From the NCBI RefSeq assembly GCF_026745355.1, contig NC_079207.1:12708338-12772337 (forward strand): a stretch of 64,000 bases of DNA, read 5' to 3'. The translations under genes and the position numbers were made by a program. The stretch comes from Beta vulgaris subsp. vulgaris. Taxonomy: Eukaryota > Streptophyta > Magnoliopsida > Caryophyllales > Amaranthaceae. Positions 16,079 to 54,976 of the stretch are shown piece after piece. The notes beneath the pieces are model-generated. The model made no database searches. It had not been told where the DNA came from and saw nothing but the letters and a program-made list of their open reading frames with translations. How positions within the stretch are numbered: position 1 is the stretch's first letter; every line of letters starts with the position of its first letter.

Positions 16079-16511
16079 AAAGTTACTACAGGTGAGTTTC
16101 ATAATAATGCACAGAGTAAGATGAATTTATTCAATTCTGCAAGTATACACAGCAAACTAATATATTTAAATTCAAGTGCTGCCATACTGCCTCATGGTCC
16201 TCTTCTTTTCAGCGATTTTTGTAACTTTCAACTGTTCTGCTTATCTACCATCAACTCTCAATGCATATAACATAGTGTTTCTCAAAGCTGTTACTATTAG
16301 AGCTAGTTATTCCACTTCTCTAAATCATGTTAAAACGCCAATTAGAACAACAGGTGTAAAACAGAGTATAGTTGCCAACTATTCTTATCAGTTATCAGCT
16401 GGCTTAGACGCAAAGATATAAGTGGTAAGAAAATTCCAGTTACCCAAAGCATAAGATCTTTAAAAGAAACATTTCTTCACCCTACATGCAGGAACATGTT
16501 TGGTGGATATG

Positions 16512-17189
16512 CAGGGATGAGCAAGGGTAGGGTCTGGGTCGGGTCCAGCTGGACCCTAGACCCGGACCCTATTTTTTTTGCAGACCCAGACCCGGACCCT
16601 AAGGGTCTGAAAAAATTGGACCCTAAGGGTCTGGAGGGTCTAGACCTAAGTTCTTTATATTGCCAAATTTTCAGCATTATTAATATCAATAACTATCTGA
16701 AATTTGCATAATGAAGCAAACACAAAAAATCGCATGAAACAAACATAAGAATTCGCATGAAACAAACACAAACATATAAATTGAAAAAAACGAAACAAAC
16801 CCAAACTTATAAACTGAAAAAAAAAACCGAAACAAACACAATTCACAAACATATAAACTGAAATAAACGAAACAAACACAAACATACAAACTAAAAAAAA
16901 CGAAACAAAACACAACTTACATAAGATTTCAGTATGGGTGTTTTGGTGTTTTAGTTTAGCTTTTAGTCTTTTAGAAAATTAGTTTTTTTAAAAAAAAAAG
17001 TTAAAATGTATATATTAAATAAGTTTAGGGTCTAAAGGTCGGGTCTGGGTCCAAAATTTTGAGACCCGAACCCTAAAAAATTTACTTGGACCCGGACCCT
17101 TAGAGTCTGAAAAAGTTGGACCCAGACCCTTAAATTAGGATCGGGTCCAACAGGGTCTAGGTAGGGTCCTGGACCCATGCCCATCCCTG
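16512..17189. mobile_element. hAT-like non-autonomous element, 678 bp
   Basis: Inserted in the pseudogene; the intact copy reads through at this point (near 50047). Ends are inverted: CAGGGATGAGCAAGGGT and, inverted, CAGGGATGGGCATGGGT. The subterminal regions are filled with 'gggtc' and 'gaccc' units on both sides, and the centre has A-rich 'aaacaaacacaaac' repeats. No coding capacity. The end sequence and subterminal repeats fit hAT, but a matching 8-bp duplication is not evident, possibly through decay. Confidence 0.65.
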
Positions 17190-18439
17190 GAAAACACCAT
17201 CACCAGTAAATCCAAATCTTTCTATCTGCTTACATATGACATCCACAGTACCAAGGTTTCATCCTTCCTCCAACTCCCTCCCAAGTCTCAAGGTCCTGAT
17301 CTCTTTACAAAAACTTTTTTACTATCACGGATCAACTAGAATCATGCCAAAACAGAAATTAAAAAAAATGCACTGCATTGTAGATCAATTTCGAGTAAAT
17401 TTTAATATTTTATAGCTCGTCTAGCTAGCTTTTCAACTTCCAAGCACTTGCAAATTTGCATGAAGGGAACATGTTTCTCCCCCTGTTGGGCATAACAACA
17501 TAATCATCCACAAATTGTACATCAGAACGATCTCATTATGCATCCAAAAACTTCAGATAGATATAGTCTGGTACTTGGTGTATGAAAGTTGTTCTAGATT
17601 TTACAGCCTTTTTAATAAAAAACGATGAGAGAGAAAGTTAGAGAGATAAGCTCTAACCAACAGCCTCAGCCCTCTAGTCCCATTAGAAACCCTAAAAACC
17701 CGATTGTAGTTCCGCGAAAAATTTTGTTTCTTCTCTTAGCCTTTGATTGGGGCTTAATCTTTAGAGTAATCATTGCTTTTCTTCACTCAATTTTTATCCT
17801 CTGTATTCAATTGAGAGTGGGTGAAGTTCAGATTACCCCTATCCATCTTAGGGATAGGTCTGCGGCTGATTTAGGTTTGCGATTATCTAAATTCGCTAGC
17901 TGGCGTGTTATTGAAGCAGTTAATGCAGGGTTTTTTGCTTGTTTGCTTAAATTCATCCTTAATTGCCAGTTTCTCTGGCTGAGGTGGCTCATTTTTAGGG
18001 GTTTTAAGTTCAAATTAGGGCTGAGGTGTTGGTTTTGTCAGATGAGTGAAGTGATGGTTCAGTTCTCTGCTAGTGTGTTGAATGCTATTCTTAATGTCCT
18101 TGTTTCTATTGTCATCATTATTTGGGGTTTCCGGGGCGATTTTTGTATCTTTCCAGTTAGATTTCTTGGTGTTGTTGGATTTTTATCCATCAATTTAGCT
18201 ATTGCATTTAATGCGATTCGAAAAGTCCCTACTCTGGTAAGGATTCATAGTTCTTTTTTTTGGCTCTCCGGAGAAGGCAGGGTCTATAAAAGCCAAGGAT
18301 TTGGTTTAGGTGGTACTCATTCTTTCTCCCTCTGTCATTTGTTCTTCATATTGCTGGTTTTTCTTTATCTAACTTCAAAAAAGTGTGGTAATAGCTTAAC
18401 TTTTCTGTTGTGGTTTTGTGTGAGGATAAACTCGTTCAA

Positions 18440-20093
18440 AGAAGCTTTGTTGTCCGAAGGAAATGGCCAGTTTCAGAATGCTGATGAAGGCGTTGTGGAT
18501 CCTGATGTGCTGGGTGGTGCTCCAGCATCTAGTCCTGCTTCTCTGTCTGTAAGTGACCCTCCGGGTCCCCCAACTTTCCCTGAAGCTATTATATTAGATG
18601 AGTTATCTCAAGTTAAGCAAGACATTGATGATTTATCAAAAACTTGTTTAGTTGGTAAAAGTTGGGTGCTGTTGTTGATTTGAGGACTGTTATGTTTGAA
18701 CAAAGCTGATTGGCAGTTCTGTAAGGGTGATATTGAGTACCTAGATATGGGAATAATGGGTTATGATTAAGTTTGCTAATCCTGGTGATTTGTTTCTTGT
18801 TTGGTCTGAAAGACCTTGGCACGTTCAAGGTGAGTTGTTTGTCATTTATCCCTGGAACCTATTTTGATCCTTATGTGGAAGAAATTAAATATGTGGATTA
18901 TGGGTAAGGATCCTAGATTTCCTGCTGAATTGCTTAACTTTGATTCCATAGCTAACCTGTTAGCTGCTAATATATTGGTGCTTTGATTAGATTGGATACT
19001 CGTTCAGTGTAAACATAAGATAAGGTTTGCCCGAGCATGTGTTAGGGTAGATATTACTGAACCCCTGTTGGAATATGCTGAAGTGACTAGAGCTGGTGGT
19101 GTGAAATGTGGTTATGTTATATGGTATGAGGATTTTTCTGTAGGCTGTTCATTTTGTGGTTGTGATGATCACAGTATTGATGATTGCTTGATTCTGTCCC
19201 CCTCTCCCAAAGAAGTCAAAGTGATGTTAATGAAACATCCAAAAAAGCAATGGCTTGCAGAGTTTATTCAAGGTGCTACTAGGCTAGCTAAGCCTCTTAC
19301 CACTGCTGAGCAAGCTTTAGTGGTTGAGGCTAGGCCTAGACACATTGTTAGACCTCTCTCTGCTTCTGCTACTCCTCCCAAAAAGTTTGTTCCAAAGAAA
19401 AAGTTCCCTGGAAAGTCTTTTACAGGAAAGAAAAATGTTGCTGCTGGTGCTGGGATCTCTATTAGAGAACCTGTTGTTCAGTCCCATCCTACAGTTGCTG
19501 CTTTATCATTGCCTTCTCAGGCTGGAAAAGGTAAGGGGGTGATGCTTGCCCACCCAGTGATTGAAGTGGATTCCTCTGATGATGACTGTGAGTCTGTGAT
19601 GCCTTCTGAGGTCCCTCCTTTCTCTAACTGTCTAGTCAGTAATGCTGTTAATCAGAATGAGAATGTTGCCATGGTGTCTTCTGCTGCTATGACCCTCCTC
19701 CCTCCCTTAGTCCATGATGATTCTATTAAGTCCCCAGTCCCTTTGAGGGTAATTTACCCTGCTGAGCTGCTTGATTGTGGTTTTATATCTGATGCTGATG
19801 GCTTCATGGATGATGAGAATGATTTATATGCTGAGGAAGGTGTCCTATCTGGTATTGTTGAGGACACTTATATCCTGGAAGAAACTGTTCATGCTGGGGG
19901 CTATTCTTCGCAGCCAGATGGCTCTTTTCACTCTCTCCATTCTGAGACCTCAATCATTAAGCAGATTGAGGGGATGGGGGTTGAAGGGGCTAGCATCAAG
20001 GACTCCATGTCTGCCTCTAGTTCAGCTAAGAGAAGGAAGATGGACTCTGATGAAGAATCATCAACAGCAAACCTGAAGAGGGGAAGGACCTAG
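18440..20093 (+). pseudogene. LINE ORF1 (nucleic-acid-binding protein), broken
   Basis: ORF1 of plant L1 elements makes an RNA-binding protein that coats the element RNA. Here the N-terminal part, with an acidic and proline-rich segment (PASLSVSDPPGPPTFPEA) and a short helix (DELSQVKQDIDDL), is in the frame ending at 18683. The DUF4283-like middle (18650-19070) is scattered over several frames with stops. The C-terminal part (19068-20093) is open and carries the zinc knuckle CSFCGCDDHSIDDC (CX2CX4HX4C), then a Ser/Pro/Lys-rich tail. It stops 30 bases before ORF2. Confidence 0.75.
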
Positions 20094-20123
20094 TCGGGTC
20101 TTTCTCTTATCCACTGCCATGAT

Positions 20124-23100
20124 ATGAATATTAGTTTTTGGAATGCTAGAGGATGTAAAAGACCTCTTCTTATGGAGGAAGTAAAAATTTTTTGTAATCT
20201 AAATAATGTTCAAGTCATGATGCTTTGTGAAACCAAAACCTCTTCTCCCCCTACGGAGGCTTTTTCTAGGTTTTGTGGGTTTCACCATCATGACTTCCTC
20301 CCGTCTTTTGGAATGGCAGGTGGCATGTGGATTTTTTGGAAAAATGTTCCTAGTCATCCCTTTTTATTTTCTGTTGATGCCAAGTATGACCGGTTTATGG
20401 TTTGTAATATAAATGTGTTGGCAATGAATATTTCCTTTAAGCTTATTTTTATTTATGCTCCTCCAAACAATAATCTCAAGCTACAATTTTGGGAAGAGTT
20501 AATTAATAGTATTCTTCGGATTTCAGGGCCTTACTTAGTATTAGGTGACTTCAATGAATTAAGTTTTAGTAGTGATAAAGTTGGTGGTGCAACTTTTTCA
20601 TTCGCAAGGTTGAACTATATGAATAGACTTTTTCAGAAGTAGAATGTATTGAATTACCATTCTTAGGATCAGGTTTTACTTGGAAAAAAAAGAGAAGTGG
20701 GCCTGGAAATATCCTAGAAAGATTAGATAAAGGAGTAGCCAATTTAGAATTCTTAAATTTATTCCCTAATGTGAAAGTTCAACATCATGCGTTTACATCC
20801 TCAGATCATTGTCAAGTATCTGTTAAACTCGATATTCTTCAAGGTAGGAAATCCCCCCCATTTAGATTTGATAAAGCTTGGACTACTCGTAAAGATTTTG
20901 AAGTGATTATTAAGAAGGCTTGGTCAACTAGATTTCATGGGTCTTATATGTTTTGTTTCACGAAAAAGTGTAAGCTTCTAAAAGAAAAAGCTAAGAATTG
21001 GGCTACCACCAGATTTGGTAATGTTCTTCGTCAATTAAAAGTGGTTGAAAGTAAATTAAAGTGTATTCAAGAAAACCTTCTGGCTAATCCCAGCTGCCCG
21101 TTTCTTGCTGCAAAGTTGGATAAGTTTCATTTGAAACAGGTTAGGTTGCTAGAATTCCAAGAACTATATTGGAAGACTAAAGCTAAATCAAATCATCTAA
21201 AGCTTAGCGATTCCAATACTAAGTATTTTCATGCCTGTGCGTCCATTAGAAGAAATCGAAATTTTATATCATCCATTGAGGATGATGCTGGTGTTGTTTT
21301 AACAGATCCAAAGGACGTTGAAAATTGTTTTTCAAATTCTTTTGTTCAACGGTTTACGGCTAATCAAGAGTGTTTTTTTGATGAAAACTGTGATTTCTCT
21401 CTGCTAGATAGTATCATTTCAGAGGAGGATAATATGCGTTTGTGTTCGGAGGTTAGTGCTGAGGAAATTAAGAACGCTGTTTTTGAGTTAGATCCTGATA
21501 AAGCACCAGGCCCAGATGGTTTCCCGCCTTTCTTTTTCCAAAAGTATTGGTCGTTAGTTGGTAATTCGGTCTGTCACGCAGTTAGGGCTTTTTTCTTTTC
21601 AGGATCGCTTTTAAAAGAAGTCAATCATACATTTATCACTTTAATTCCTAAAGTGGAATCCCCTTCTAATCCGAATCAGTTTCGGCCTATTAGCCTGTGT
21701 TCTACTATCTATAAAGTTATTGCAAAAATAATGGCTTCTAGATTGAAGATTGTGCTCGGGAAAATTATTCATCCCTTGCAAGGTGCTTTTGTCCCTGAAA
21801 GACTCATCCAAGACAATGTGTTGATAGCGCACGAAGTTTTTCATTCTTTTAAAAAGAAATCAGGGAATCAAGGGTGGTTAGCTATTAAGCTTGATATGGA
21901 GAAAGCTTATGATCGATTAGAGTGGAATTTTATCTTTGCAGTTTTTAAGAAATTAGGTTTTTGTGAGCGATGGGTTGGCTGGATGAAGGAATGTATATCC
22001 TCAGTTTCATTCTCTGTTTTAGTTAATGGGATCCCTGGTGATGTGTTCTATCCTTCTAGGGGAATCCGGCAGGGAGATCCTCTTTCGCCTTATATTTTTA
22101 TTTTGTGTGCTGAAATTCTTGCTAGGCAACTTCATGCAGCCAGCAGAGAGGGGCCTAAGTTAGTTGGTGTCTCTTTGGGTCACTCTCGTGTTAAAATTCC
22201 GTTTCTAACATTTGCAGATGACACTATGATCTTTGCTAAAGCTACTGTCGATAGTTGTACTGTTATCAGGGAAATTCTGGACGATTATTGTAGGATGTCA
22301 GGTCAATTAGTAAATTATAATAAGTCAGCATATCAATGTTCTCCTAACACTGACCCCATTCTCGCTACTTCCTTTGCCTCTATTCTGCGCATGGGTGAAG
22401 CTTGTTCCTTGGGTACATACTTGGGTTGCCCTATTATTGATAGTAAGGTTACTAATAATACCTTTGGGGATATTTAGGAAAAGGTTCAAGGTCAGCTCTC
22501 CAAGTGGAAAGCTAACTCCCTTTCCCAAGCGGGTCGCACGGTCCTCATTCAAGCTAATTTAGCAACCAAGGCTAATTATCAAATGCAATGCTTCTTATTG
22601 CCTCCTCACATAGTGGAATCTCTCGACAAGAGTTATCGGAACTTTTTCTGGAATAAATCTTCAGAATCTACATCCCCTAATCTTATAGGTTGGGATAGAA
22701 TCTGCAAACCAAAGAAAAATGGGGGGCTTGGGTTGAGAAAGGCCAAAGTTATGTATATGGCCTGACAAAAAAGTATATGAAAACTGATGGATTGTTTGAT
22801 TATAGGGTTAAAGCTAATGCTTCCTGGCAGTGGCGCAAACTCATGTCTTTAAGGAATAAGTTTAAGCATGGTCTGCGGTGGGTTGTGGGTAGGGGGGACA
22901 AGATTTCTTTTTGGTTTGACAATTGGGTGTTCCAGTATCCCATTTGCTCAGTTTGTTCGGTCCTCAGCGGTTCTGAGTCCTTGGTTGTTGAGAGTTTTAT
23001 CACCCAGGGTTATCAATGGGATGTAGCGAGGCTTAGGGAGTTTGTCACGGAGGAGGTTTGCCTTGCCATCTGTAGCATCTTCATTCCTAAGCATCCTTTG

Positions 23101-24237
23101 GAGGATAAGTGTGTGTGGGCTCTTTCGCCTGATGGGTGCTATTCTGTTAAATCGGGTGTTCAGCTCATTCAAGGTTCAGGGCTTGAGGTTCATGGTTCCT
23201 TGCTTAGGGTTCCTTTCTTTTGGATTTGGAGTCTCCAGGTTCCTCCCAAGATTAAGTTCTTCCTTTGGAAGATCTGTAATAACGGGCTTCCTACTAAAAA
23301 GAGGCTGGAGGTGAGTCATGTCTTCCTTCCTCTTGAGTGTGTTTTTTGCAATCACCATTCTGAACATCTTCTTCATCTATTTGTGGAGTGTCCCTTTTGT
23401 ATCGATGTTTTTGATATGTTAGGGACCAGGTTTGGTCGGCCTTCTCTTCCTGGTAATCCAGAGGGACTTGCTTTCATCGATTGGTTTTGTGCTTTATCTA
23501 AGAGTAGGTCTTTGCCTGAGTTAGCGAAGATTGCCACAACTTGGTGGTTTGTTTGGTATGCGAGGAATGGTATCACCTTTAGAGATGAGGCTTTTCCGGT
23601 CGTTAAACTTTGCTGGATGATTAAGAATTTTGTGGATCGGTGTAGGGATGACCCTCTTGTGTTGGATCCTTCGCTCCCTGGTAGTGAGTTGCTTCGTAAG
23701 TCCTCTAAGCTTTCAAGGCTAAATGTTGCTTGGGTTGCCCCCCCGGTCGGGTTTTTTAAGCTCAATTTTGATGGGTCAAAGCTGAAGGATGGCTCAGCGG
23801 CCTTAGGTTTTGTTATTAGAAATAGAGAAGGCATGATCAAGCTTTGTGGTGCTCGTTCTTTAAGTGCTGATTCTTCTATTTTGGTGGCTGAAGCTTGGGC
23901 TCTCAGAGAAGGGCTTGCTGGTGCTCGTATGCTAGGGATTAATAAGCTGGTGGTTGAAGGGGACAATCTGTCTGTGATTCAAGCTATTAAGCGTGTTTGG
24001 AAAATTCCTTGGTCTATCCATTCTCTTATTATGGATGCAGGGGAAGAGTTGAAGAATTTTGCGGAGGTCAGTATCAACCATGGAGTTCGGGAAGGGAATG
24101 CTGCAGCTGATTGGATGGCTCATCGTGGTCATGTTTGTTCTAATTTAACTTATTGGTTTGAGTCTCCTGATTTCAATTTCTCTGTAATCATCCGAAAGGA
24201 TGCTTTAGGGTGGCCCATTTCCTGGGAACCTCCCTAG
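20124..24237 (+). pseudogene. LINE ORF2 (endonuclease, reverse transcriptase, RNase H), broken
   Basis: Polyprotein that nicks target DNA and reverse-transcribes the element RNA. Order: apurinic-type endonuclease (start MNISFWNARGC; LCETK; LVLGDFNE) at 20124-20820; reverse transcriptase at about 21430-22480 with APGPDGFPP, QGAFVPERLIQDN, LDMEKAYDR, RQGDPLSPYIF and the catalytic FADD of FLTFADDTMIFA; zf-RVT region (PPKIKFFLWKICNNGLPTK) at about 23240; RNase H at 23750-24130 (NFDGSK, AEAWALREGL, VEGDNLSVI, GNAAADWMA). Lesions: frameshift at about 20640; TAG at 22475-22477; stop at about 22763 followed by a frame change and an apparent deletion of tens of codons before 22777. The RNase H domain itself is open and keeps its acidic residues. 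Confidence 0.88.
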
Positions 24238-25233
24238 TGTTTGGTTTCTGTTTAAAAAAAAAAAAAAATGTATGATGATCACACAGTTGGAACCAGTCAC
24301 AAGCTAAGCATAGAGGCCCCATTATCCCTTATCAGCTAGTTATATCTTATGAAAGATGAAAACATATAAACGAATTATCAAGCCTTTCTACAACATTGAA
24401 GAAGTCCAGCAGATCTTAGACAGATGGGACACCCCAGAAAATTGTAATGCAGCAGCATGCTCTAAGAACTCAAATCTAAAAGAAGAGCTTTCCTCAAATA
24501 TCAGCCACATCACAGAAAATTGAGTTTACCGTGAGCGTGATATGGTCTTGATAGCTGCAAACATCCAATTGTCCGTGACCATTGTCATGATGGCTTCCAT
24601 ATGCGAGATGTAACCTTATTGCCTACCCAACGCAAGGTGGATTCTAGAAATTTGTACTTCTAAAGAGGCGTTATTACACCGCTGATCAGAACGCAATTAA
24701 TCAAATACAGGGTAGTGGATATAATGGGATTTGTGTGCAACTTAACTTTATATAAGTGATGGAGTAGCTCTAACAAATCTTTGTGTGCAACTTAACAACA
24801 TAGCGAAAAAAAAAAGAGAATATCACGGGATACTAATACCAAGGAAAATCATAACGTATATTTTAGATAAGAAAAAAAACTAAGAAATTAACAGAAAGAT
24901 CAAGATGGTAGCATGAAAAAAATAGATCCATTGAACTCGAGGAATTCACCAAAAATTGTCACAGGTAACCTGACTTTTTCCGAAATATGGACTCATTTGG
25001 CAATAGATTGAATGAACAAAACCTCCACCTCACTTCATAAGAATACTCCATATAAGAGTGTTTCATAAGCAACATATGCCAATATTCATAGTGCCTTTTC
25101 TTTCGTAGTAACTATTAATGCAATTTTCTGAATTAACCATCACCAAGGTCTATACTACACACAAATAACTATGCAATGTACACTCAGTGTATAGCTCACC
25201 AAAAGCTAGAAAAACTGCATGGTTATAAATATA

Positions 25234-25490
25234 CTCCCTCTGGTTTTTATTAGTTTACCCACTTTCCTTTTTTGGTTGTCCCTTATTAGTTTACCACTTT
25301 TTTCTGTTTTTGGAATGGTCCCATCAATTGTTTCATATTATCTTTATCTTCTCACTCTACTTTCCTTGGCCTACAACATTAACTTCAATACAACATGCCA
25401 ATAAATTAATACTTTCTCTTTCCTTCTATGACCCACATACCAAAACTTTGTGCCCAAAGAAGTGGGTAAACTAATAAAAAACAAAGGGAG
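25234..25490. mobile_element. Stowaway-type MITE, 257 bp
   Basis: TA at 25232-25233 and at 25491-25492 flank ends reading CTCCCTCTGGTTTTTATTAG and its inverse from CTAATAAAAAACAAAGGGAG. TA duplication and a CTCCCTC-type TIR identify a Tc1/mariner Stowaway-like MITE. It lies in the intron after exon 6 of the pseudogene and is missing at the matching point of the intact copy (about 51478). Confidence 0.85.
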
Positions 25491-25676
25491 TATTATATAC
25501 CAATGCGCCATTCGCAAAGAAAAATATTCTATCTAAGACAAAGGAGGTGAAAAGGAAGCAGTTTAGCTTAGCACCTAGAAAATTGCATTCTGGGTAGTAT
25601 GTTGTGTGATGGATTTTCTCAGGGCACCCAAGACCCTTTCAGCCGGTGAGATAGTTGAAGACCGTAATGTTCCTAC

Positions 25677-26436
25677 TGTTGGATAATTTAGAGTATTTGG
25701 TTGATTGATTTCATGTAACGTATCACTTGAATAACTTGGTTATGGTGTCGTTGTTCAAGTTATGTTAATTATGCATGTAGATTGTTTATGGTGTAGTAAA
25801 CAATAAGTTTGAAGAATAAAGAAACCGTGAACATAATATGCTTGGTGGTTTAGCCAAGCATGATGCAGTGGGCTGGAAATATCACTCGCTCAGCATGCTC
25901 GTGGCATCGCACAAAGGCATCGCACAGTAGCATCGCTCGCTAGGCATACATGCGCAGAGCTGGAGGCGAGGGCTGGAGGAGTCGCACATCGCGACTCGCG
26001 ATGCTCGTCGCGACTCGCGACAGGCCGCTCGCGACTCGCGAGCTCTGTCTCGACTCGCGACGAGAGCCTGTCTTCAGCGTGGCTTTGTGTGCAACGAATG
26101 GTTTTGACGGTTATCTTTGTGTTGTACGTGCATAAAAGTGGTTTTCCACAGATGAAAGACATAGATTTTCAGAATATTTCTCTTAAAAACAAGCACTCTC
26201 TCTCAAGTCTAAGAGTAGATTAATCATCAAACACAAAACTAAAATCTTATTCTCATTTTGACAAGATTCATACGAGCGTGACTCTTGTTGTTCTTCTTTG
26301 TATCTCGAAATTGAATTCCGTGCAACCCGTGCTTCGTATAGGGTCGGAATATCACTTTTGGGAAAGTGTCTACACACGCCTAGAAGATTCGTAGTTCATT
26401 GTATTCATCTTCTTCACCCTTTTTCTAGTTCTAACA
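25677..26436 (+). repeat. 5' LTR of the copia element
   Basis: 760 bp, TGTTGG...CTAACA. Around 25985-26065 it holds a GC-rich cluster with four copies of 'gactcgcga' and their partial inverses, making short palindromes (tcgcgactcgcga). Elsewhere the LTR is AT-rich, so this CpG-dense block stands out. Confidence 0.93.
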
Positions 26437-26460
26437 ATCCAAAAGTGATATTATTTGAAG

Positions 26461-27780
26461 ATGGCTACGGTACGTGAAATGACTTCGAATTTTCAGAAAC
26501 TTGAAAAGTTTGAGGGTGTGGGATTCCGTAGATGGCAAAAGAAGATGCATTTTCTTCTCACTTCTCTTTCGGTGGCATATGTTTTGAGTACTCCAAAACC
26601 CGAGTTTGTGGAAGATGAAACTTTGGAGGCCTCAAGGAGAAGGAACAAGTGGGAGAATGACGATTATATATATGTCGTGGTCACATTTTAAACGGTATGT
26701 CTGACAATTTATTTGATGTTTATCAATTTTATGAATCCGCTAAAATGCTTTAGGATGACCTTGAGTCAAAGTAACATGGCCGAAGATGCATCTAGTAAGA
26801 AGTTCTTAGTTAGTAATTTCAATAACTTTAAGATGAATGAAACAAGGCCTGTGATGGAACAATTCCATGAAATTCAAAGGATTTTAGGAAGTTTTAAACA
26901 ACACAATATTAGTATGGATGAAACTTTATTGTATCTTCAATAATAGACAAATTACCACCAAGTTGGAAGGATGTTAGAAATACTCTTAAACATAGGAAAG
27001 ATGATATAAATGTGGAACAATTGGGTGCTCATCTTCGGATTGAAGAGGGCATTCGGGTTCAAGATGGACAAAAGGAGGTAAATCCTAATTCTTCTACCAT
27101 TAACATGGTGGAGGATGGAAAGTTCGACTCAAATCCTAAGAAGAGGGTAATAATTTCACCAAAGGCAACAACTTTAAGAAGCCTAAGAATGGTGGAGGTG
27201 TTCAACAACGTGGTTGTTGGGAGTGTGGCAAGCCCGGACACTTCAAAAAGGATTGCTTCCTATGGAAGAGGAAAATGAACAAAAAGAATGAGCAAGGTGG
27301 AGGGAAAGGCGAGTCTAGCCAATCCCAAGCCAAACAAGGTACTTGTCACAACTTTCATGTAATTCAGTTTGAATTATATGTGTATGATTTCTGAAATCTT
27401 TTGTGTACAGGATGATTGTTCATGGTATATCGATTCAGGAGCTTCAAGGCATGTGTGCAAGGAGCGGTCTTCATTCAAAACCTTCAAGGAGGTGGACAAT
27501 GGAGAAGTTCTATACATGGGGAATGACTCTACAGCTCAAGTTCTTGGTATAGGACAAGTAGAGTTGGTCTTTAGTTCCGGCAAATCTCTAGTGTTAAGAG
27601 ATGTTGTATTTGCTCCGGAACTTAGGCGTAATCTAGTGTCAGGAGCTATCTTGAATCGAATAGGTTTTAAAATGGCTTTTGAGTCGGACAAATTTATATT
27701 ATCTAAGGGTGGTTTGTTTGTTGGACTTGGTTATTTGTGTAATGGTATGTTTAAACTAGCATTTCAAATGCTTTAGTAAC
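26461..27780 (+). pseudogene. copia gag and protease region, broken
   Basis: Starts MATVREMTSNFQKLEKFEG, the common copia gag opening with a substrate-like W (FRRWQKKMHFLL). The capsid region continues in several frames (MSDNLFDVYQ; EQFHEIQRILGSF). The nucleocapsid zinc knuckle is CWECGKPGHFKKDC at about 27216-27257. The protease region has WYIDSGASRHVC (DSGA active site) at 27420-27460 and LRRNLVSG downstream. Stops and frame changes occur near 26690, 26751, 26772, 26941, 27150 and 27775. Not able to make a continuous Gag. Confidence 0.85.
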
Positions 27781-27799
27781 AATGTGTGTGTTATTAATG

Positions 27800-30470
27800 A
27801 TAATTCTTCTCTTTGGCATTTAAGACTTGGTCATGTTAATTATAGAAAATTATATTCTATGGCTAAGGATGATTTAATTCCTTTTTGATCCAAGTATTGA
27901 GAAGTGTAGAACATGCATGCTTACCAAAATAACTAGGTGTTCTTTCCCTAATAATGTGGAAAGAGATACTAAATTGCTTATTTGGTACATAGTGATCTTT
28001 GTGATTTTCATAGTACACCTTCTTTAGGAAACAAAAAATATATAGTAACATTTATTGATGATCATTCACGATTTTGTTATGTATATTTATTGTCTACTAA
28101 AGATGAAGCCCTAGAAAAATTTGAGATCTATAAAAATGAAGTAGAATTGCAACTAAGTGACAAGGTTAAACGGTTTAGAACCGATAGAGGTGGTGAATTT
28201 CATAATCCTAGTTATTTCCAAGCTTTAGGAATAATACATGAAACAACCGCGGCTTATACACCACAACAAAATGGTGTAGCGGAAAGAAAAAATAGAACTT
28301 TACAAGAAATGGTAAATTCTATGTTATCCTACTCGGGTTTGAGTGATGGTTTTTGGGGTGAAGCGGTTTTAATCCGCTTGTTACATCTTGAACGTGTTCC
28401 TATGAAAAAGAACAAGTTACCCCTTATGAATTATGGTACAAAAGAAAACCAAATCTAAGTTACATTAGAGTTTGGGGATGTAGGGCAATAGTGAAAGTGC
28501 CGGAACCTAAACGTAAAAAGTTAGGTGAAAGAGGAGTTGAATGCATCTTTATAGGATATGCTTCTCATAGCAAATCCTATAGGTTCTATGTTATAGAACA
28601 AAACGACTTTTGGTCGGTTCACACTATTGTGGAGTCAAGGGATGCAATTTTTGATGAAAATAGATATTCATCGGTTCCTAGACCAAAGGAATAACTCCAA
28701 GTACCGAAATTCAAGAAATTGATCAAAATGATGATCATGAGTTAGATGAACAAATTCTAGATGAAAATGTTGCATCTACATCAACTCAACCAAGGAGAAG
28801 TAAACGGGTTAGGAAAGAGAAATCTTTTGGCCCGGATTTTCATGTATATTTGGTTGAAGGATCAAGAGATAGTGTTTTGACTAAATTTCCATATGTCTAT
28901 AATGTGGAAGGGGATCCTTTAACATATGATGAGGCCATGCAATCTCAAGATGCTTCATTTTGGAAAGAAGCTATTGATGATGAAATGGACTCAATCATGG
29001 GGAATAACACATGGGTTTTAGCGGACCTACCTCCTAAATGTAAACCAATAGGGTGCAAATGGATTTTCAAGAAGAAAATGAAAATCGATGGAACTATTGA
29101 CAAGTTCAAAGCCCGGTTAGTGGCACAAGGCTTTTCTCAAAAGCCGGGTATCGATTATTTCGATACATATGCACCTGTAGCTCGAATCTCCACTATAAGA
29201 TTATTGATTGCCTTGCAGCAATTCATAATCTTGTGATCCATCAAATGGATGTCAAGACTGCGTTCTTGTATGGAGAATTAGATGAGGAGGTTTACATGAG
29301 ACAACCGGTTGGATTTGTTGTCAAAGGTCAAGAACAAAAAGTTTGCAAGCTGATTAGATCTTTGTATGGGCTAAAACAAGCACCTAAGCAATGGCATCAA
29401 AAATTTGATGAGGTAGTGTTGTCTAACGGATTCAAATTGAACAATTCAGACAAGTGTGTATATAGCAAATTTGATGACAATGGTCATGGTGTTATGATTT
29501 GCTTATATGTAGATGACATGCTAATTTTTGGAACTGATTTATCCCAAGTTGAGTGGACTAAATCTTTTCTATCGTCTAAGTTCTCAATGAAAGATTTGGG
29601 GGAGGCGGATGTCATTCTAGGAATTAGAATTAAAAGAAGCAAAGGTAAATTGAGTTTGTCTCAATCTCACTACATCGAAAAGGTTCTTAAGAAATTCGAT
29701 GTTAGTGGTTGCTCTTTTGTGTCAACTCCAATGGACCCTAGTGAGAAATTACTACCTAATGTAGGTAGTGCTGTATCTCAACTTGAGTATTCAAGGGTGA
29801 TTGGATGTTTGATGTATGCAATGACGAGTACTAGGCCGGATATCGCATTTGCGGTAGGCAAACTAGTAGGTATACTAGTAATCCTAGTGTACAACATTGG
29901 CAAGCTATTCGTCGTGTGTTAAGGTATTTAGGAAAAACCAAGGACTATGGTTTATCCTACAGTGGATATCCTTCGGTTTTAGAAGGGTATTCGGATGCAA
30001 GTTGGATCTCTAAAAAGAAGATCACTCTTCTACAAGTGGATGGGTATTTCTACTTGGGGGAGGTGCTATATCTTGGGCTTCCAAGAAACAAACTTGCATA
30101 GCGGATTCCTCCATGACTTCGGAATTCATTGCTTTATCTTCCGCAAGCAAAGAGGCGGAGTGGTTGAAGAATCTCATGATTGAGATTCCTTTGTTGCCAA
30201 AACCGATATCGCCCATAGCGATTCATTGTGATAACGATGCTGCTTTGGCAAGAGCATATAGTCAAGTCTATAATGGTAAGTCAAGACAATTGGTGTGCGG
30301 CATAGCTACATCCAAGGACTTATCAAGGATAGTGTAATCACTGTTGACTATGTACGTACAACGTATAATCTAGCGGATTGTTTTACAAAGGCCTTGGCTA
30401 GAGATAATGTAAAGAGGATGGCAATCGGTTTAGGATTGGAGCCCCTCGAGAATCACGAATGAGGGAATCT
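27800..30470 (+). pseudogene. copia integrase, reverse transcriptase and RNase H region, broken
   Basis: The integrase pre-domain (LWHLRLGHVNYRKL) is followed by the catalytic core at about 27980-28390 with HSDLCD, FIDDHSRFCYVYLL, TDRGGEF and the glutamate of PQQNGVAERKNRTLQ. RT spans about 28950-29870: WKWIF-type KPIGCKWIFKKK, QMDVKTAFLYGELDEEVYM, LYGLKQAPKQWH and the catalytic YVDDM. RNase H (about 29910-30330) has EGYSDASW and ADSSMTSEFIALSSASKEAEW. Frame breaks near 27890, 28440, 28690, 29230, 29870 and 30080-30110 separate these blocks. The RT block 29233-29922 is open over 229 codons. Confidence 0.88.
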
Positions 30471-30979
30471 TAACTTAACGCCCAATATGACGTTGGGTCT
30501 TAAGTTCAATAAGATTAATTTCTTCATTTAGATGATTGTAGAACTTTATTCATCCTAAGTTTATATTCTATAACTGTGTTGTATAAGGAGGTTGTAAACT
30601 TAATAGGTCTCTTGTTTTGTGCTTTTCACAGTAGCATGTATTTTAGAGATCTACCTATGTAAGTGTGAAGTTTAGCCGCTTCAAGGAGCTAGTGGGCATA
30701 GCTTTGATACACTTATGAACAGATATGGACACAAGGCTTTATGTGTCGGTTAATAATGAGTTTAAGTAAATTTATCTTGTGTGTATTGTATCTTCGGGTT
30801 TCCATTATGTATTGAAATTGGTTCAATCGTTATCGACACCAATTGGATACGGATACTTGGAATGTGTACTTTACTATATGAAAGTTCAAGTTTTATACAC
30901 TTTCATTTATGCATAAGATGTTTGTTTTGATGATGTTTAGTGCTTATTATCTTATAGAATACTCTAAATGGGGGAGGAT

Positions 30980-31741
30980 TGTTGGATAATTTAGAGTATT
31001 TGGTTGATTGATTTCATGTAACGTATCACTTGAATAACTTGGTTATGGTGTCGTTGTTCAAGTTATGTTAATTATGCATGTAGATTGTTTATGGTGTAGT
31101 AAACAATAAGTTTGAAGAATAAAGAAACCGTGAACATAATATGCTTGGTGGTTTAGCCAAGCATGATGCAGTGGGCTGGAAATATCACTCGCTCAGCATG
31201 CTCGTGGCATCGCACAAAGGCATCGCACAGTAGCATCGCTCGCTAGGCATACATGCGCAGAGCTGGAGGCGAGGGCTGGAGGAGTCGCACATCGCGACTC
31301 GCGATGCTCGTCGCGACTCGCGACAGGCCCGCTCGCGACTCGCGAGCTCTGTCTCGACTCGCGACGAGAGCCTGTCTTCAGCGTGGCTTTGTGTGCAACG
31401 AATGGTTTTGACGGTTATCTTTGTGTTGTACGTGCATAAAAGTGGTTTTCCACAGATGAAAGACATAGATTTTCAGAATATTTCTCTTAAAAAACAAGCA
31501 CTCTCTCTCAAGTCTAAGAGTAGATTAATCATCAAACACAAAACTAAAATCTTATTCTCATTTTGACAAGATTCATACGAGCGTGACTCTTGTTGTTCTT
31601 CTTTGTATCTCGAAATTGAATTCCGTGCAACCCGTGCTTCGTATAGGGTCGGAATATCACTTTTGGGAAAGTGTCTACACACGCCTAGAAGATTCGTAGT
31701 TCGTTGTATTCATCTTCTTCACCCTTTTTCTAGTTCTAACA
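30980..31741 (+). repeat. 3' LTR of the copia element
   Basis: 762 bp, same ends as the 5' LTR, including the GC-rich palindromic block at about 31288-31370. It has one extra C in 'ggcccgctcg', one extra A in 'cttaaaaaacaag' and 'ttcgttg' for 'ttcattg' near 31702. Confidence 0.93.
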
Positions 31742-34104
31742 CCTACATCAACCCACAACGAGTAAAAACACGAAATTAATAGTCAGTAACATGAAAATTC
31801 CAGCATGAAAAGAACAATGAAGAGGACTTATGATCATTGACCTTATATAATTTTAAAAACTTTCAGGCTGATGCCATGTTTACAGGTGAGCTTGAACTTT
31901 CCGCACAGTGAACTAAAATCATAACATACCACTATCAGAAGCTGAAAGCAAGTCAGGCTTCCCAAGAAGTAGAGAGGAACTAAAAGTTTTTAACTCCACA
32001 TGCTTAGGCTCAATCAGCTTCCTCTCCCACGCGATAAGATCTTTTAGCATAGAGTTCATCCCTTCATGCTTTCTGACTTTACCAGACAGACATGCACCAG
32101 CTCTTGAAGCATCAATATCTATGCTGTACACCCCACAGAGGAGTTCTTCCCAGTAATTTATATTACTTTCTCTACCTTCAACTTCAGGATCTAGAGAATT
32201 GATAATAATCAGCATAACGTGGTACAAGTGGGACGTAGAGGAAGACCTATTTGGGTTGACAATTAATCCGCAATTCAGAGAAGCGAGTTGGAAACCTGAA
32301 ACTGAGAACTCTCATTACAATATATAGCAGTTCAATTTACATTCATTCTATCATCTTCTTCATATCTCTTCTAGTAACTGGTTAGATGATCATAAGATGA
32401 TAAGATCTTAACATTTTTTTTTTGTAACGGTTTCATTATCTAAAATATCTACAATTTCTGAACATTTTCGTGGCATCTTATGCCTCTTTTCCTCTTTTAT
32501 GTATATATGGAATTCATCATATTACACCTTTGATACTCCTAAGAATTCTCCTACGACTAATGCATAAACAAGCACATAGGCTCTATCCAATCATATACAC
32601 AAGAATATCCAAATATAAAATTGAAAGGATCATCGTGTAGTCCACTATAAAAATAAATTGAGGGGACATACACACATAATTATCTAATAAGAATGCCTGG
32701 TTTAAAAATACACATTTTATACCCAATTAGTTATAATATTATTGCTATTGGAATATCTATTAGATTTAACCTGAGGCCAAATAGAATGTATGATACTATG
32801 ATTAAATGGTATCATGTTATATATTAGCCACAAATTACAATATCAACCCAAAAAAGCAGTTACGCAAACACAATTCCATGCTGAAAATCTACTTCTAGAA
32901 AAATTTAAAAAACCTCCAACAGCACAGCACGGCTACTGCAGTTCACACCGAATACAGTCATCATCAAGTGGTAAAATTTTACAGGGGAAGAAGGGTGAAA
33001 GAAATAAAACAAGGTAGCAACATTACCTGGCCTCTGAGAAGTGGAGGCTGGAGGTGATATAGAAGAAAAAATAAGCCGAGAATCTCTGAAGTGGGCCAAT
33101 GAACAAGAAGGCTCCTTCTCCCAATCGCATTCCTGCCAAACCACAAGGTCTTGGAGGCATCGTAAGACCGATGGACATGCTTCAGAAAAGTAAAGATAGC
33201 CAATGTCCACAACATCACCCAAAAAGCATCACAGATTATCAAGATTGAGCAGCAATATCATGAATGTTCATCTATCTAAACTAGTCAACATCATGTCTAC
33301 CATAACTTAAGCCCTTTCAATCTACAACAAAAATACATTACTATTGAGGTTTACCATTATAAATAAGGATATTCCCAGAAGCATCAACCAACGGCTGAGC
33401 AACTGGCTTTGTTTCCCTCAATTGGAGCACTGCACCAATAAAACATATCTCTGCAACAGATCGATTTACTCCAATTTCAGTCTCGCCATTGGCACAGCTT
33501 ATACGGTTATGCATATCCGCAAGCACAGAATTTGTTTTCGACGTCCTCATCTCTGGCAACATAAGAATGAAGTTGTGCATCCTTCACCTCGAGGAAAAAC
33601 CTATTTAGTCCCAAGCTATCAGGACCTCTTCTTCGTAAAACGGCTTTCAAATCATCAATTGTAAAGGTAAACTGCACTGAGTATAACAAGCATTCCTTAC
33701 TTTAACACCAAGAAAAATTTCACCACAACATAAGCAAAGATCAAATCTTCAAGCATTATAAATTCAGATCAAATCTTCAAGCATTATAAATACAGATCAA
33801 ATACTAATACTATGAATAAGTAAACCCAACTAGATCATGTTATTCCATAAAATCACAAATTTGGCAATTTCCCACATTACCAAATAACATATAGCATAAC
33901 ATCAACCCAATATTCATTTCATCAAATAGCACTATCATCATTTTGTTCCTAAAAAAAGAAAAAGAAAAAAAGAGGAACATTCACAACAGGCCCCCATCTT
34001 AAAATGGCACTAAAAATATACAGAAGATACACTACTTAAGCAGCTATTAGCTGATGCAAAACTGGGTAAAAAATACATAAAAATGCTTTAATACTTAAAT
34101 CAAG

Positions 34105-36843
34105 CTAGCCAAGTGGCCGAAGCTGCTTCAACAGTTGTACAACTTGCTTCATCGTAGGCCTGATTGAGAGCGTGTCGACGGTGCATTTTACAGCCAGGTG
34201 TAGCACCTCCACCAGATCATCATGTGGACCGCTCTCCCAGATTCCTGCTGCGAAAACCTCCTTTGCTCGACCCTGGCGCAATAGCATATGGGCCCAGGAG
34301 ACAATATTGAATCCGTTCCCATGAGAGGAAAACGATGGATCCAATGCTTTTTTGTCCGAGATCAGCTCGAGCAACACAACACCATAGCTATACACATCAG
34401 CCTTCTCGGACACACGACATGTCATGGCATATTCAGGGGCTAGATAACCAAAGGTCCCAGCAACACCAGTTGTGGCATGGGTTTCGGAATTCTCCAACAG
34501 CCTGGATAAGCCAAAATCAGACAAATATGCATTGTAGTCGTTGTCCAGTAAGATATTGCTTGGCTTCACATCTCTATGTATAACCCTTGGATTACATTCA
34601 TCATGTAAGTATGCAATTGCCTGGGCTACATCCAATGCAATCTTGTGAAGTACTTTCCATTTAATGGACTTTGTCAATCTCTCCTGGATGAACTTTTCCA
34701 AATTACCACCAGGAAGATAATTATAAATGAGGAACATCTCTGTTTCACTGGCGTGATAACCTATGAGGGTAACCAGTTTATCATGGCGAATCCTTCCAAG
34801 GGTCTTAATCTCAGCATCAAACTGTTGAATGCAATGAAACCTTCCAACTGAAAGCCGCTTTACAGCCACGCTCACGTCTGAAGTTATCTCAGCCTTATAG
34901 GTCGCACCAAAGCCGCCACATCCGATGCAGTGGCCAGCACTAAAACAGTCTGTTGCCTTGACAATATTCTGGAATGTCAATGGCACCCCAATGTCAGTGA
35001 AAACTTTGATTTCCCTTCTTTCATACACTTGAATCCTAGAGCTATCTCTAGGAGCACATTTCCTTGTATAAATGAAGAGGACAACAAGTGCCAACAAAAC
35101 AAGAACAATAACTGATGCAGATGCAATGGATGCAATCTCTATTGAGTTGAATTTGTTATTCCCATTACCATAACCACCTCCGGATGGAGATTCTGCATCT
35201 GCTTGCAAATCCTCAGCACTGCTCTGCACAGTGGAGGATGACATTGTTTCATCTGCGGACGAGTTGAGTTCTGAAAGTAACCTTGCCTTTCCAGGTCTCC
35301 TTACTTTACTATGTGAATCAGTGAAATCATTATCCCTGATGCGGTGGATCACACGGAACTTTGTCTTTGAAAGGAAAGAGGAGGTTCTCAAGCAAGCTCT
35401 ACTCATGAAGAATGAAAGATATGCAACGGGTCCCTTGTTCAGCTGGTGAGAATTTGAAATCAATGACGGCAGAGAAGAGCAGGCAATAAATGTGTATCGG
35501 GTGGCTCGCCCAACTATTCTAGGAGCATGATGGTTCTCAATGAGCTTCCCAGAGAGCCTGTTTAAGCTTACATTAACATAAACAAGGCTCTTGCAGTTGT
35601 CAAAAACTCCATCTACTCTCCCAGTAAAGAAATTCTGAGACAAATTTATCACTTCCAAGAGATCACAACTACCCCATTTGCGCGAAATCTCACCCTCGAA
35701 CCCTGCCTTTGGTGCCCAAAGAACTCTCAGTTTTGGCAATGTGGTAATCTCCATGGGAATCATACCTTGGAATAGATTCCTTTCACTACAACAAGTATCA
35801 CCATTTGACTCTCCATTGACTGTACACGATTCATCCAGATTCGACAACACAAGAGCTGATAAGTCGCGACAATTCCCAAGCTCAGCTGGGACGTTACCAG
35901 AAAGGCTATTCCTGGAAACATCCAACACATTGAGCTTCCTAAGCTTGCCAAGCTCATGTGGAACGACGCCTTGCAACACGTTCGAAAACAACAAGAGCAC
36001 TCGTAACTCCCTGCAATCCCCCAAGCTAACCGGTATCTTCCCATTCAATGAATTACTGGACAAATCAAGATACTTAAGATTGACACAATTACTTCCCCAC
36101 ACATCAGGAATTTCCCCTTTTAACCGATTCAATGACAAGTAAAGCCCTGACAACTTAGGGAAACCAGCAACAAACCCCGGAATCAAACCCTCAAGCTGAT
36201 TGGCAGCCAAATTCAGCAACTCCAACCCCACTAATCCTGAAAAGGAACTAGGTATCTCTCCACTAATCCTATTCAAACCCAAATTCAAAACCCTCAATCT
36301 ATTCGAAACCGAATTCGACAACTTCCCAGAAAGCAGATTCCCTTCTAGATCAAGCACCTCCAAAGTCTCTATCCCCCAAATTTCCTCAGGAATCTCCCCA
36401 CTAAATTCATGAAAAGGAAGAGATAAAACCCTAAGTTTCTTCAATTTACCAATCCCAGATAATAATTTCCCACCCAATTTCCCAACTCTACCATCACAAA
36501 TTCTCCTAATCCCTAACCCATAAAACGGAAACTCACTAACATTAAAACAACCAACTTTCCCCAAATGATTACCAGAACCACCGCCGACAATTTTCAGAGA
36601 CGAAACCCTAAATTGAGAATCACAAACCACACCATACCAAGAACAATGATGGGTATCACTAGAATCATTAGCTAATAATACCCAAGAAGAAAGAATTCCA
36701 GACTCATCAGACAATGAAGATTTGAACTCCAACAAAATTTCTCTCTCCTCTAATAATGGTAAATCAAACCCTTTTCCTTTACCAGAAAAGCTGCAAAACC
36801 CAAGTAACAACACCACCTCAACTAGTACAACAAAACGATGCAT
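34105..36843 (-). CDS. LRR receptor-like kinase, RPK2/TOAD2-like, shortened ectodomain
   Basis: Single-exon gene, 912 aa from the ATG at 36841-36843 (MHRFVVLVEVVLLLGF); the longer open frame upstream has no ATG. Likely a plasma-membrane receptor kinase. Order: signal peptide (about 1-22), LRRNT_2 with the CSWYGVVC pair, about ten LRRs, a diverged stretch, transmembrane helix at about 572-592, kinase at about 624-905. Kinase landmarks: glycine loop GCGGFG 641-646, VAVK lysine 662, HRDVKPSN with HRD 756-758, DFG 776-778, APEY 802-805, so all catalytic residues are present and it is an RD kinase. The IEIASIASAS transmembrane entry and the kinase match RPK2, known at about 1150 aa in Arabidopsis. 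The shortfall of about 240 aa is in the C-terminal LRR block: after RDNDFTDS the protein goes directly to a Ser-rich juxtamembrane segment. No premature stop. Confidence 0.92.
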   Translation of the reverse strand: MHRFVVLVEVVLLLGFCSFSGKGKGFDLPLLEEREILLEFKSSLSDESGILSSWVLLANDSSDTHHCSWYGVVCDSQFRVSSLKIVGGGSGNHLGKVGCFNVSEFPFYGLGIRRICDGRVGKLGGKLLSGIGKLKKLRVLSLPFHEFSGEIPEEIWGIETLEVLDLEGNLLSGKLSNSVSNRLRVLNLGLNRISGEIPSSFSGLVGLELLNLAANQLEGLIPGFVAGFPKLSGLYLSLNRLKGEIPDVWGSNCVNLKYLDLSSNSLNGKIPVSLGDCRELRVLLLFSNVLQGVVPHELGKLRKLNVLDVSRNSLSGNVPAELGNCRDLSALVLSNLDESCTVNGESNGDTCCSERNLFQGMIPMEITTLPKLRVLWAPKAGFEGEISRKWGSCDLLEVINLSQNFFTGRVDGVFDNCKSLVYVNVSLNRLSGKLIENHHAPRIVGRATRYTFIACSSLPSLISNSHQLNKGPVAYLSFFMSRACLRTSSFLSKTKFRVIHRIRDNDFTDSHSKVRRPGKARLLSELNSSADETMSSSTVQSSAEDLQADAESPSGGGYGNGNNKFNSIEIASIASASVIVLVLLALVVLFIYTRKCAPRDSSRIQVYERREIKVFTDIGVPLTFQNIVKATDCFSAGHCIGCGGFGATYKAEITSDVSVAVKRLSVGRFHCIQQFDAEIKTLGRIRHDKLVTLIGYHASETEMFLIYNYLPGGNLEKFIQERLTKSIKWKVLHKIALDVAQAIAYLHDECNPRVIHRDVKPSNILLDNDYNAYLSDFGLSRLLENSETHATTGVAGTFGYLAPEYAMTCRVSEKADVYSYGVVLLELISDKKALDPSFSSHGNGFNIVSWAHMLLRQGRAKEVFAAGIWESGPHDDLVEVLHLAVKCTVDTLSIRPTMKQVVQLLKQLRPLG

Positions 36844-39195: not shown

Positions 39196-39225
39196 CAATA
39201 GCACAAGTAGATCTAACAAAGTTAG

Positions 39226-41191: not shown

Positions 41192-41194
41192 TTA

Positions 41195-52400: not shown

Positions 52401-54976
52401 CTATGTATTTATGGAATTCATTATATTACACCTTTGATAGTCCTAATAATTCGCCTACGACTAATGCATAAACAAGCAGATGGGCTCTATCCAATTATTT
52501 ACACAAGAATATCTAAATATAAAATTGAATGGATCATTGAATAGTCCATTATAAAAATAAAATGAGGGGACATACACACATAATTATCTAATAAGAATGC
52601 CTGGTTCAAAAACACACATTTATACCCAATTAGTTATAATATTAATGCTATTGGAATATCAATTAGATTTAAACTGACGCCACATAGAATGTATGACTAA
52701 ATAGTCTCATGTTATATATAAGCCACAAATTACAATATCAACCCCAAAAAAGCAGTTACACAGACACAAATACATGTTGAAAATCTACTTCAAATATAAT
52801 TTATAAAACCTCCAACAGCATAGTTACTGCAGCTCACACCAAATACAGTCATCATCAAGTGGTAATATTTTACAGGGGAAGAAGGGGAGAAAGAAATAAA
52901 AACAAGGTAGCAACATTACCGGGCCTCTGAGAAGTGGAGGCTGGAGGTGATATAGAAGATAAAATAAGCCGAGAATCCTCTGAAGTGGGCCAATGAACAA
53001 GAAGGCTCCGTCTCCCCATTGCATCCCTGCCAAACCACAGGGTCCTGGAGGCATCCTAAAACCGATGGGCATGCTTCAGAAAAGTAACGTTTACCATGAA
53101 AGGCAAAACAAAAGGCATATATCACGGAAACTGCCAAAAAGAACTTACCAGTCCAAGAGGATACCTGCCAATATATTACAGCCCAGGGCCCTTTAATTGA
53201 TGAAAGAAGTTCAGGAATTGGTTTCCCACAACAGCTGCTACTATTCCCATGGAACTGGCAACAGCAACAGTTTTCCAAAGACTGCAGCAGGACTTTAGCA
53301 TCATTGCTGTCAAAGCTAACATGGATCCCACCAAATATTTCACCTTCAAAATGAAAGAATGCACCAGTCGATATGCATATTTCTGAGAGTAATATCAACA
53401 TATTCACTACAAGTATAAGAAAACAAAGCATTCATGATCCAAAAACATAAACAGAAGTTTTACCTATGAACTACTTAAAGTACACAGAAAGCAGAACATC
53501 GTATGGACATCCTGACTTTCAAAAAAATGAAATATTTCAAATTCTAAACAGAAAACTCTAGATGTTCATTCTTCAGCAGAAGCAAAATAGACATCCCATA
53601 AAACTGCTTCAAGACCACTCATTTCACTGTCAACGAAAATTCTCAAAAGTAAAAGGCAAAGGAGGGTAAGCAATTTTGTCGAAAAGTAAATAAGGGATGA
53701 TCGGACTACAAGCAAGTTTGAGATAGAGAACAGAAATAATATGGTTATGTAGCCACTAAGTTCCATTTTCCCATCCCAAAAGGAAAAAAAGAGTCCCTGA
53801 TTAAGCGGTAAAATGATGAAAAGAATGCCACTTAAAACAAATCTGTGATGCTCTCCATTGTTCATTCTTAACTTATCATCATAATTGACACCTTTTTTAA
53901 ACACATACTGTAAAGATGGCCAATATTCCACAAGGTCACGCAACAAACATCACAAATTATCTAGATTGAGCAGCAATATCATGAAAGTTCACCTATCTAA
54001 GCTAGTCAACACCATGTCTACCATAACTCAAGCCCTTTCAATCTACAACAAAAATACATTACTATTGAGGTTTACCATTATAAATAAGGATATTCCCAGA
54101 AGCATCAACAAACGGCTGCGCAACTGGCTTTGTTCCCCTCAATTGGAGAACTGCACCCAAAAAACACATCGCTGCAACAGACTGATTTACTCCAATTTTA
54201 GCCTCTCCATTGGCACAGTGTGCACTGCTATGCATATCCTGCAAGCACGAGAGTTCGTTTTCGACATCCTCATCCCTGGCAACACAAGAATAAACTTGTG
54301 CATCCTTCACTTCAAGGAAAACCTTTTTAGTCCCCAAGCTATCAGGACCTCTTCTTCGTAAAACCGCTTTCAAGTCATCAATTGTAAATTTAAACTGCAC
54401 TCAGTATAACAAGCATTCCTTACTTCAGCACCAAAAAAAATCACCATTACTAACATAAGCAAAGATCAAATCTACAATCCTTACAAATTCAAACCAAATA
54501 CTAATACTACCTATAAACAAGCCCAACTATATCAAGTTATAATGACATCAAAATTTTGCAAATTTCCCACATTACCAAATAACATATAGCATAACATCAA
54601 CCCAAACCTAATATTCATATCATCATATAGCATTAACAAAAAAAAAAAAACAAACCATCCCCAACTATATCAAGTTATTACAACATCATAGCATAACATC
54701 AACCTAAACCCAATATTCATTTCATTATATAGCATTAAAGAAAACATTTTGCTAAGAAACAACCCATCAAGTTTTCTTCTTTTCTTTCCTTTTTTTTCTA
54801 TAGCAACTATATTAAGCATGTAAATTATATTAAAGTAGACATTTTTTGTTAATAAAAAAGAGTAGAAATTACTTAACTGGTTGAACATCAGCAGTTGAAG
54901 ATAATAGTTGGGTGTTATTATTAATGGAGGATAAATCAATGGAAATACCATCAAGTATGAATGAAATACCACACAT
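43423..54976 (-). CDS. asparagine-synthetase-family protein (ASNSD1-like), complete, 14 exons
   Basis: Exons (- strand): 54878-54976, 54076-54394, 53165-53343, 52920-53055, 51839-52099, 51559-51656, 49429-49546, 49195-49300, 45748-45841, 45150-45346, 44362-44461, 44151-44267, 43724-43780, 43423-43530. All introns are GT-AG and phases join without a break: 1989 nt, 662 aa. The start MCGIS supplies the N-terminal Cys2 nucleophile of class II glutamine amidotransferases, followed by LRRRGPDSLG and DASGNILIYNGEIFGG. The C-terminal half is an ATP-pyrophosphatase domain with PP-loop SGGLDS (384-389) and GSGADEQCAGYGRH (from 515). That order and GSGADE in place of the ASNS GEGSDE mark the asparagine-synthetase-domain-containing (ASNSD1) family, not the classical enzyme; whether it makes asparagine is not established. 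The 3.35-kb intron before exon 9 holds several MITEs. No lesion found. A broken duplicate lies at 16079-33955. Confidence 0.95.
43950..44095 (-). repeat. SINE-like sequence in the intron before exon 13
   Basis: On the - strand: 'gaggcttgggtggtagctac' (A-box-like) and 'caggggtctaatcctcg' (B-box-like), followed by a C-rich tract that reads as the G-run at about 43971-43981 on the + strand. Consistent with a decayed tRNA-derived SINE, but no direct repeats were matched. Confidence 0.4.
46259..46572. mobile_element. hAT MITE, 314 bp
   Basis: An 8-bp direct repeat CATACAAG lies at 46251-46258 and 46573-46580. Ends are CAGGGCCGGTTCTGA and, inverted, CAGGGCCGTTCCTGA. Subterminal 'cgcctagggcccac' and 'cgcctagggcccaa' are present at the two ends. 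No coding sequence. Located in the large intron before exon 9 of the ASNSD1-like gene. Confidence 0.9.
47048..47070. repeat. (CA)n microsatellite
   Basis: About ten uninterrupted CA units in the large intron of the ASNSD1-like gene, followed by 'cacccacccaccc'. Confidence 0.85.
48025..48543. mobile_element. Stowaway-type MITE (outer), split by a second MITE
   Basis: TA flanks at 48023-48024 and 48544-48545. Ends CTTCCTCCGTTCTTTTCCTA and, inverted, TTTCCTACGTTCTTTTTCTA, with the similarity continuing through 'ttgcaacaattga'. The inner element at 48211-48469 separates its halves; without it and one TA the outer element is about 258 bp. Confidence 0.8.
48211..48469. mobile_element. Stowaway-type MITE (inner), 259 bp
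   Basis: TA on both sides (48209-48210, 48470-48471). Ends CTCCCTCCGTTTCATTTTAA and, inverted, CTCCCTCCGTTTCATATTAA, continuing 'tctacacac'. Nested within another Stowaway-like MITE in an intron of the ASNSD1-like gene. Confidence 0.88.

Follow-up and report, generated by a model that had tools for sequence, protein, structure and literature searches.

A broken partial duplicate beside the intact ASNSD1-like gene of Beta vulgaris subsp. vulgaris

In a 64,000-nucleotide stretch of Beta vulgaris subsp. vulgaris DNA (hereafter the window), an intact ASNSD1-like gene and a broken copy of it lie on either side of a receptor kinase gene. The original prediction read the broken copy as duplicate-gene decay, which raises the question of whether a complete second gene ever stood there. 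Our verdict is a real and ordinary duplicated pseudogene that is probably best worded as copied incomplete, then decayed.

The two copies and what separates them

The right copy agrees with the 14-exon, 662-codon gene that had been predicted, with GT...AG boundaries at 13 of 13 introns (Table 1). Its protein can be aligned over its full length with orthologs ranging from quinoa to Rumex and is 65–78% identical to six full-length ones. LOC104895781 isoform X2 (P0001, 576 aa, from the same subspecies) is 100% identical over 87% of our model; this isoform begins with the internal Met of codon 87 (54076-54976) and thus lacks the Cys2 end. Our model opens MCGI and so includes the N-terminal Cys2 of class II glutamine amidotransferases, a start shared by 5 of the 7 other aligned sequences (P0003 reads MCGV, and P0001 is without that end). 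Pfam detects GATase_7 (PF13537, 28.7 bits; cut-off 25) and Asn_synthase (PF00733, 68.6 bits; cut-off 21) domains on P0001, and exon 7 of the right copy carries the nucleotide-binding motif SGGLDS, which is SGGVDS in 2 of 8 aligned sequences. The score against true asparagine synthetase (NCBIfam asn_synth_AEB, 89.5 bits) is far under the cut-off of 267.1, which fits an asparagine-synthetase-domain protein; the ASNSD1 name is taken from the NCBI names of relatives and was assigned without comparison to the human protein. No solved structure matched the right-copy protein by sequence at E 0.001. Judged by its sequence, the right copy is a working gene. A tRNA-Thr (CGT) gene, the sole match of an Rfam search, lies on the opposite strand at 55120-55191, 143 bp upstream of the right-copy start codon.

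Table 1 Features of the duplicated locus, in window positions
Feature	Position	Strand	Basis or remark
Right copy, ASNSD1-like gene LOC104895781	43423..54976	-	Intact gene model
RPK2-type LRR receptor kinase, 912 aa, between copies	34105..36843	-	Pfam and tree
Left copy, broken partial duplicate, intron 1 to intron 6	16078..33955	-	Self-BLAST and alignment
Exon 2 remnant	33355..33671	-	Three 1-base losses, one 1-base gain
Exon 4 remnant	33027..33161	-	One 1-base loss; acceptor reads AC
Exon 5 remnant	31930..32190	-	No indel
Exon 6 remnant, downstream of Copia element	25575..25672	-	Last codon TAG
NCBI model LOC130591701 (P0241), 127 aa	25575..32215	-	32215-31930 joined to 25672-25575 across Copia
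Copia LTR retrotransposon	25677..31741	+	LTRs 25677-26436 and 30980-31741; integrase (rve) then reverse transcriptase (RVT_2), Pfam
Copia target site duplication CCTAC, copy 1	25672..25676		Minus strand GTAGG = exon 6 acceptor
Copia target site duplication CCTAC, copy 2	31742..31746		Original intron 5 context
LINE retrotransposon, left intron 6	17607..24278	+	RVT_1, zf-RVT, RVT_3 (Pfam), A-rich end; frames broken
MITE	25231..25493		34-nt terminal inverted repeats, TA at both ends
Insertion, ~0.68 kb	16515..17190		Ends CAGGGATG.../...CATCCCTG
Matching block	16078-16514		Right 49565-50051; self-BLAST
Matching block	17191-17606		Right 50054-50472; self-BLAST
Matching block	24279-25231		Right 50503-51482; self-BLAST
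Matching block	25506-25676		Right 51493-51660; self-BLAST
Matching block	31742-33193		Right 51656-53087; self-BLAST
Matching block	33190-33937		Right 53910-54638; self-BLAST
Matching block	33886-33934		Right 54682-54737; self-BLAST

Self-BLAST of the window returned seven collinear same-strand blocks (E-values ~1e-9 to 0) that take in introns as well as exons, bearing out the claim of a DNA-level duplication; the lack of intron identity that would speak against it was not seen. Over exons and introns together the copies differ at 441 of 4059 compared sites (~89% identical), and the parent introns are kept in the left copy (3165 aligned intron sites, K2P 0.125), which rules out a retrocopy. One edge of the left copy falls within intron 1 (33937 according to BLAST, ~33955 by eye within an A-rich tract), ~150 bp past the kinase stop codon; the other, at 16078, lies in intron 6, ~20 bp before the exon 7 acceptor would be reached. 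The whole genome (569 Mb) was searched with protein and DNA queries and no third copy was found: 16 of 16 matches to P0001 (12 right, 4 left) and 7 of 7 matches to the right block fall within the two copies.

Relative to its working parent, the left copy carries five frameshifting indels, an AC acceptor, an in-frame TAG and absent exons. The predicted frameshifts in exons 2 and 4, the lost acceptor before exon 4 and the stop in exon 6 were all recovered, as was the absence of exons 1, 3 and 7-14: exon 3 is missing inside an 822-bp gap (right 53088-53909) and the others fall beyond the matching stretch. Exons 5 and 6 contain zero indels in 359 bp. Set against plant ASNSD1-like proteins (LOC104895781 and its orthologs), the right copy is alike along its full length, whereas the left copy offers only parts of exons 2, 4, 5 and 6.

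While the breaks listed in the original prediction stand, its description of the left copy missed four mobile-element insertions (hAT-like, LINE, MITE and Copia), which account for ~13.7 of the 17.9 kb. The Copia element has LTRs of 760 and 762 bp with TG...CA ends, 1 mismatch and 2 gap columns between them, a 5-bp target site duplication, and integrase ahead of reverse transcriptase. On the gene strand this duplication corresponds to the exon 6 acceptor (GTAG) plus the first exon base (G), so that an AG stands on either side of the element; only the upstream AG of these two keeps the original intron context. The LINE has endonuclease and reverse transcriptase frames, the endonuclease being read by eye in the list of open reading frames only, and an A-rich 3' end; no target site duplication was seen by eye at 17607/24278, where ~12 bp of target are missing instead. 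The arms of the MITE, which we take to be Stowaway-like, are 94% complementary over 34 nt and are flanked by a TA target duplication. The ~0.68 kb insertion is presumably hAT-like, and a target duplication was looked for there and not seen. To the left of the pseudogene, at 10393-12234, broken frames resemble a hAT transposase by eye; the sole piece compared with Pfam (10396-11208) gave no match.

The kinase between the copies

The receptor kinase predicted between the copies is an intact gene and is not part of the damage. Pfam identifies an LRR ectodomain and a kinase domain, and a 22-sequence tree places the protein with Bienertia and Spinacia proteins named RPK2 (Amaranthaceae), then with Caryophyllaceae and then with Rumex, in keeping with an RPK2-type kinase. 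Across the ectodomain region equivalent to Rumex residues 460-760, beet and seven Amaranthaceae, Caryophyllaceae or unnamed close relatives keep 72-102 residues, compared with 242-318 in the other 14 of the 22 aligned sequences; an LRR block seems to have been lost from RPK2 in one part of Caryophyllales. Short coding stretches of the kinase (36538-36752) match C11 and C2 at 80-86% DNA identity, and these are possibly dispersed gene fragments.

ASNSD1 and RPK2 bear consecutive tags on one contig in Rumex salicifolius (V2J09_012948 and V2J09_012949) and occur on different listed contigs in Bienertia, Silene, Gypsophila, Saponaria, Nepenthes and Ancistrocladus. This adjacency, seen in 1 of 7 Caryophyllales among the best 120 matches listed per gene, hints at an old neighbourhood. 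In the interval separating the kinase from the right copy, 37452-40957 holds a large inverted-repeat element whose arms are full of short GGTCCAATAAG-type tandem repeats, and two ~230 bp tandem copies, 97% alike and with an inner TCTGA repeat, occupy 58998-59465.

Origin of the left copy

We regard it as reasonably probable that the left copy belongs to the unprocessed pseudogenes and arose as an incomplete local duplicate, in the same orientation, of the only ASNSD1-like gene in beet. The duplicated segment would have spanned introns 1 to 6; alternatively, it would have reached further and the 3' half would have been lost afterwards. At the junction, intron 1 would have been fused directly to the DNA that immediately follows the RPK2-type kinase's stop codon, as expected of a tandem duplication ending in intron 1. 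From birth the left copy would then have been without promoter and exon 1, and the enzyme was most likely never made. The changes observed in it would have followed: base substitutions accumulating about as fast as under neutrality, five single-base exon indels, deletion of exon 3 and four insertions.

Divergence between the copies is 0.094 in exons and 0.125 in introns (0.090/0.079/0.113 at codon positions 1/2/3), with dS 0.150 (bootstrap 0.094-0.210) and dN 0.079. Plant substitution rates are 6.5e-9 to 1.3e-8 per site per year. At such rates the intron K2P of 0.125 would mean a duplication age of ~5-10 million years, and by its LTR substitutions the Copia insertion would be very recent, roughly ~0.1 million years or less.

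Amino-acid changes per site amount to 0.089-0.103 on the left branch and 0.072-0.075 on the right. The left branch carries ~26-27 such changes (two stops counted) against 34.3 (sd 5.4) simulated under neutrality at the intron rate, and the probability of 27 or fewer under neutrality is 0.10 at the intron rate, 0.012 at a dS-based rate and 0.61 at a lower rate. Exon indels number 6.1 per kb (5 events), against 14.4 per kb in introns for the two lineages combined; the exon density is close to half of the intron density, which is what a lineage evolving neutrally should show. Of the two tests, the one on amino acids leans slightly towards early constraint on the left copy and the one on indels towards none. 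Amino acids differ at 41 of 267 codons, 14 of them left-derived, 12 right-derived, 10 with both states in outgroups and 5 with neither. Among sites on which the six outgroups are unanimous, 8 have changed in the left copy and 1 in the right; the right copy has changed too, but at variable sites. CpG loss is not clearly faster in either copy (26 vs 22 sites).

These data bear on whether a complete second gene worked for a time, then lost exons 1, 3 and 7-14 and decayed. The original prediction holds as to the duplication and the broken state, and decay from an intact duplicate is only partly supported: both edges are intronic, and exon 1 with its promoter would overlap the RPK2 coding region unless intervening DNA had been deleted, which makes birth in incomplete form simpler. 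The deletion over exon 3 demonstrates that deletions occurred, and the left branch falls a little short of the length predicted under neutrality, but the exon indel density is near neutral, and we judge a formerly complete gene unlikely while giving it real weight. A genome-wide search for a second RPK2, as a trace of a longer duplication, found none: apart from RPK2 itself it gave a gene at C9:67.6 Mb matching at 69% and some short partial matches; the C9 gene was rejected as a duplicated RPK2, as the tree puts it in another clade.

Pack-MULE and Helitron elements carry gene pieces with introns, and a fragment with introns kept and both gene ends missing resembles such cargo. Carriage by a gene-capturing element is nonetheless very improbable given a single copy in the genome, near its source and in the same orientation. 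Terminal repeats were not found around the fragment: 14000-16110 and 33920-34110 share no 11-mer in either direct or inverted orientation. An assembly artefact, e.g., a second haplotype placed in tandem, is scarcely credible: nothing was found in its favour, the copies show ~11% divergence with four insertions in the left one only, and the contig on which NCBI places the two loci measures 72475159 bases (72468723 in the assembly searched), so that a second assembly or version agrees.

Read as an incomplete duplicate, the left copy resembles plant unprocessed (duplicated) pseudogenes in its retained introns, disabling changes, same-strand position beside its parent and inserted mobile elements. 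It differs from them in probably having been without both ends from birth and in having a Copia element exactly on the annotated splice acceptor. The canine merle SINE in PMEL17 is likewise a retroelement at an intron/exon boundary whose target duplication involves the original acceptor (PMC7349775). Compared with that case, the beet insertion is a ~6-kb LTR element in an already broken plant gene and is known here from DNA alone. In the collection of papers searched, none of four LOC numbers occurs, and searches by topic returned nothing on this locus.

The annotated gene over left exons 5 and 6

With left exon 5 as query, a single protein was retrieved, LOC130591701, at 100% identity. This NCBI model takes left exon 5, slightly extended, splices it to left exon 6 and stops at the TAG of that exon. 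Its product corresponds to no more than the linker joining the two enzyme domains and lacks both Cys2 and SGGLDS, and several residues invariant among the aligned orthologs are changed in it (e.g., P262, W288, R355, R356). The dN/dS of exons 5+6 (0.076/0.134) gives a ratio no lower than that of exons 2+4 (0.080/0.163). LOC130591701 is a probable misannotation in a crop reference genome and should be treated as doubtful pending RNA.

Spliced transcripts of the left copy had been named as the observation that would overturn the pseudogene reading, and an NCBI annotation joining exons 5 and 6 approaches this without reaching it. The left copy could still be transcribed, with exons 5-6 spliced across Copia to yield LOC130591701 as a 127-aa product or a noncoding RNA; the annotated protein equals the two joined segments, and with GTAGG duplicated the element is flanked by an AG at each end. 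We hold this to be quite unlikely, as protein similarity may be the sole basis of the NCBI model and the altered invariant residues, absent motifs and unreduced dN/dS count against it. Slightly more doubtful again is that the Copia insertion has been tolerated by splicing. Its target duplication would have re-created the acceptor, so that intron 5 came to include the entire ~6-kb element, and the transcribed remnant would be a young short gene or RNA derived from a dying duplicate.

The left copy provides a well-resolved example of a partial gene copy being dismantled by point changes, small indels, a larger deletion and then mobile elements. With a Copia element lying on its acceptor, it also offers a straightforward way to learn from RNA whether splicing can remove an LTR element by virtue of the target duplication.
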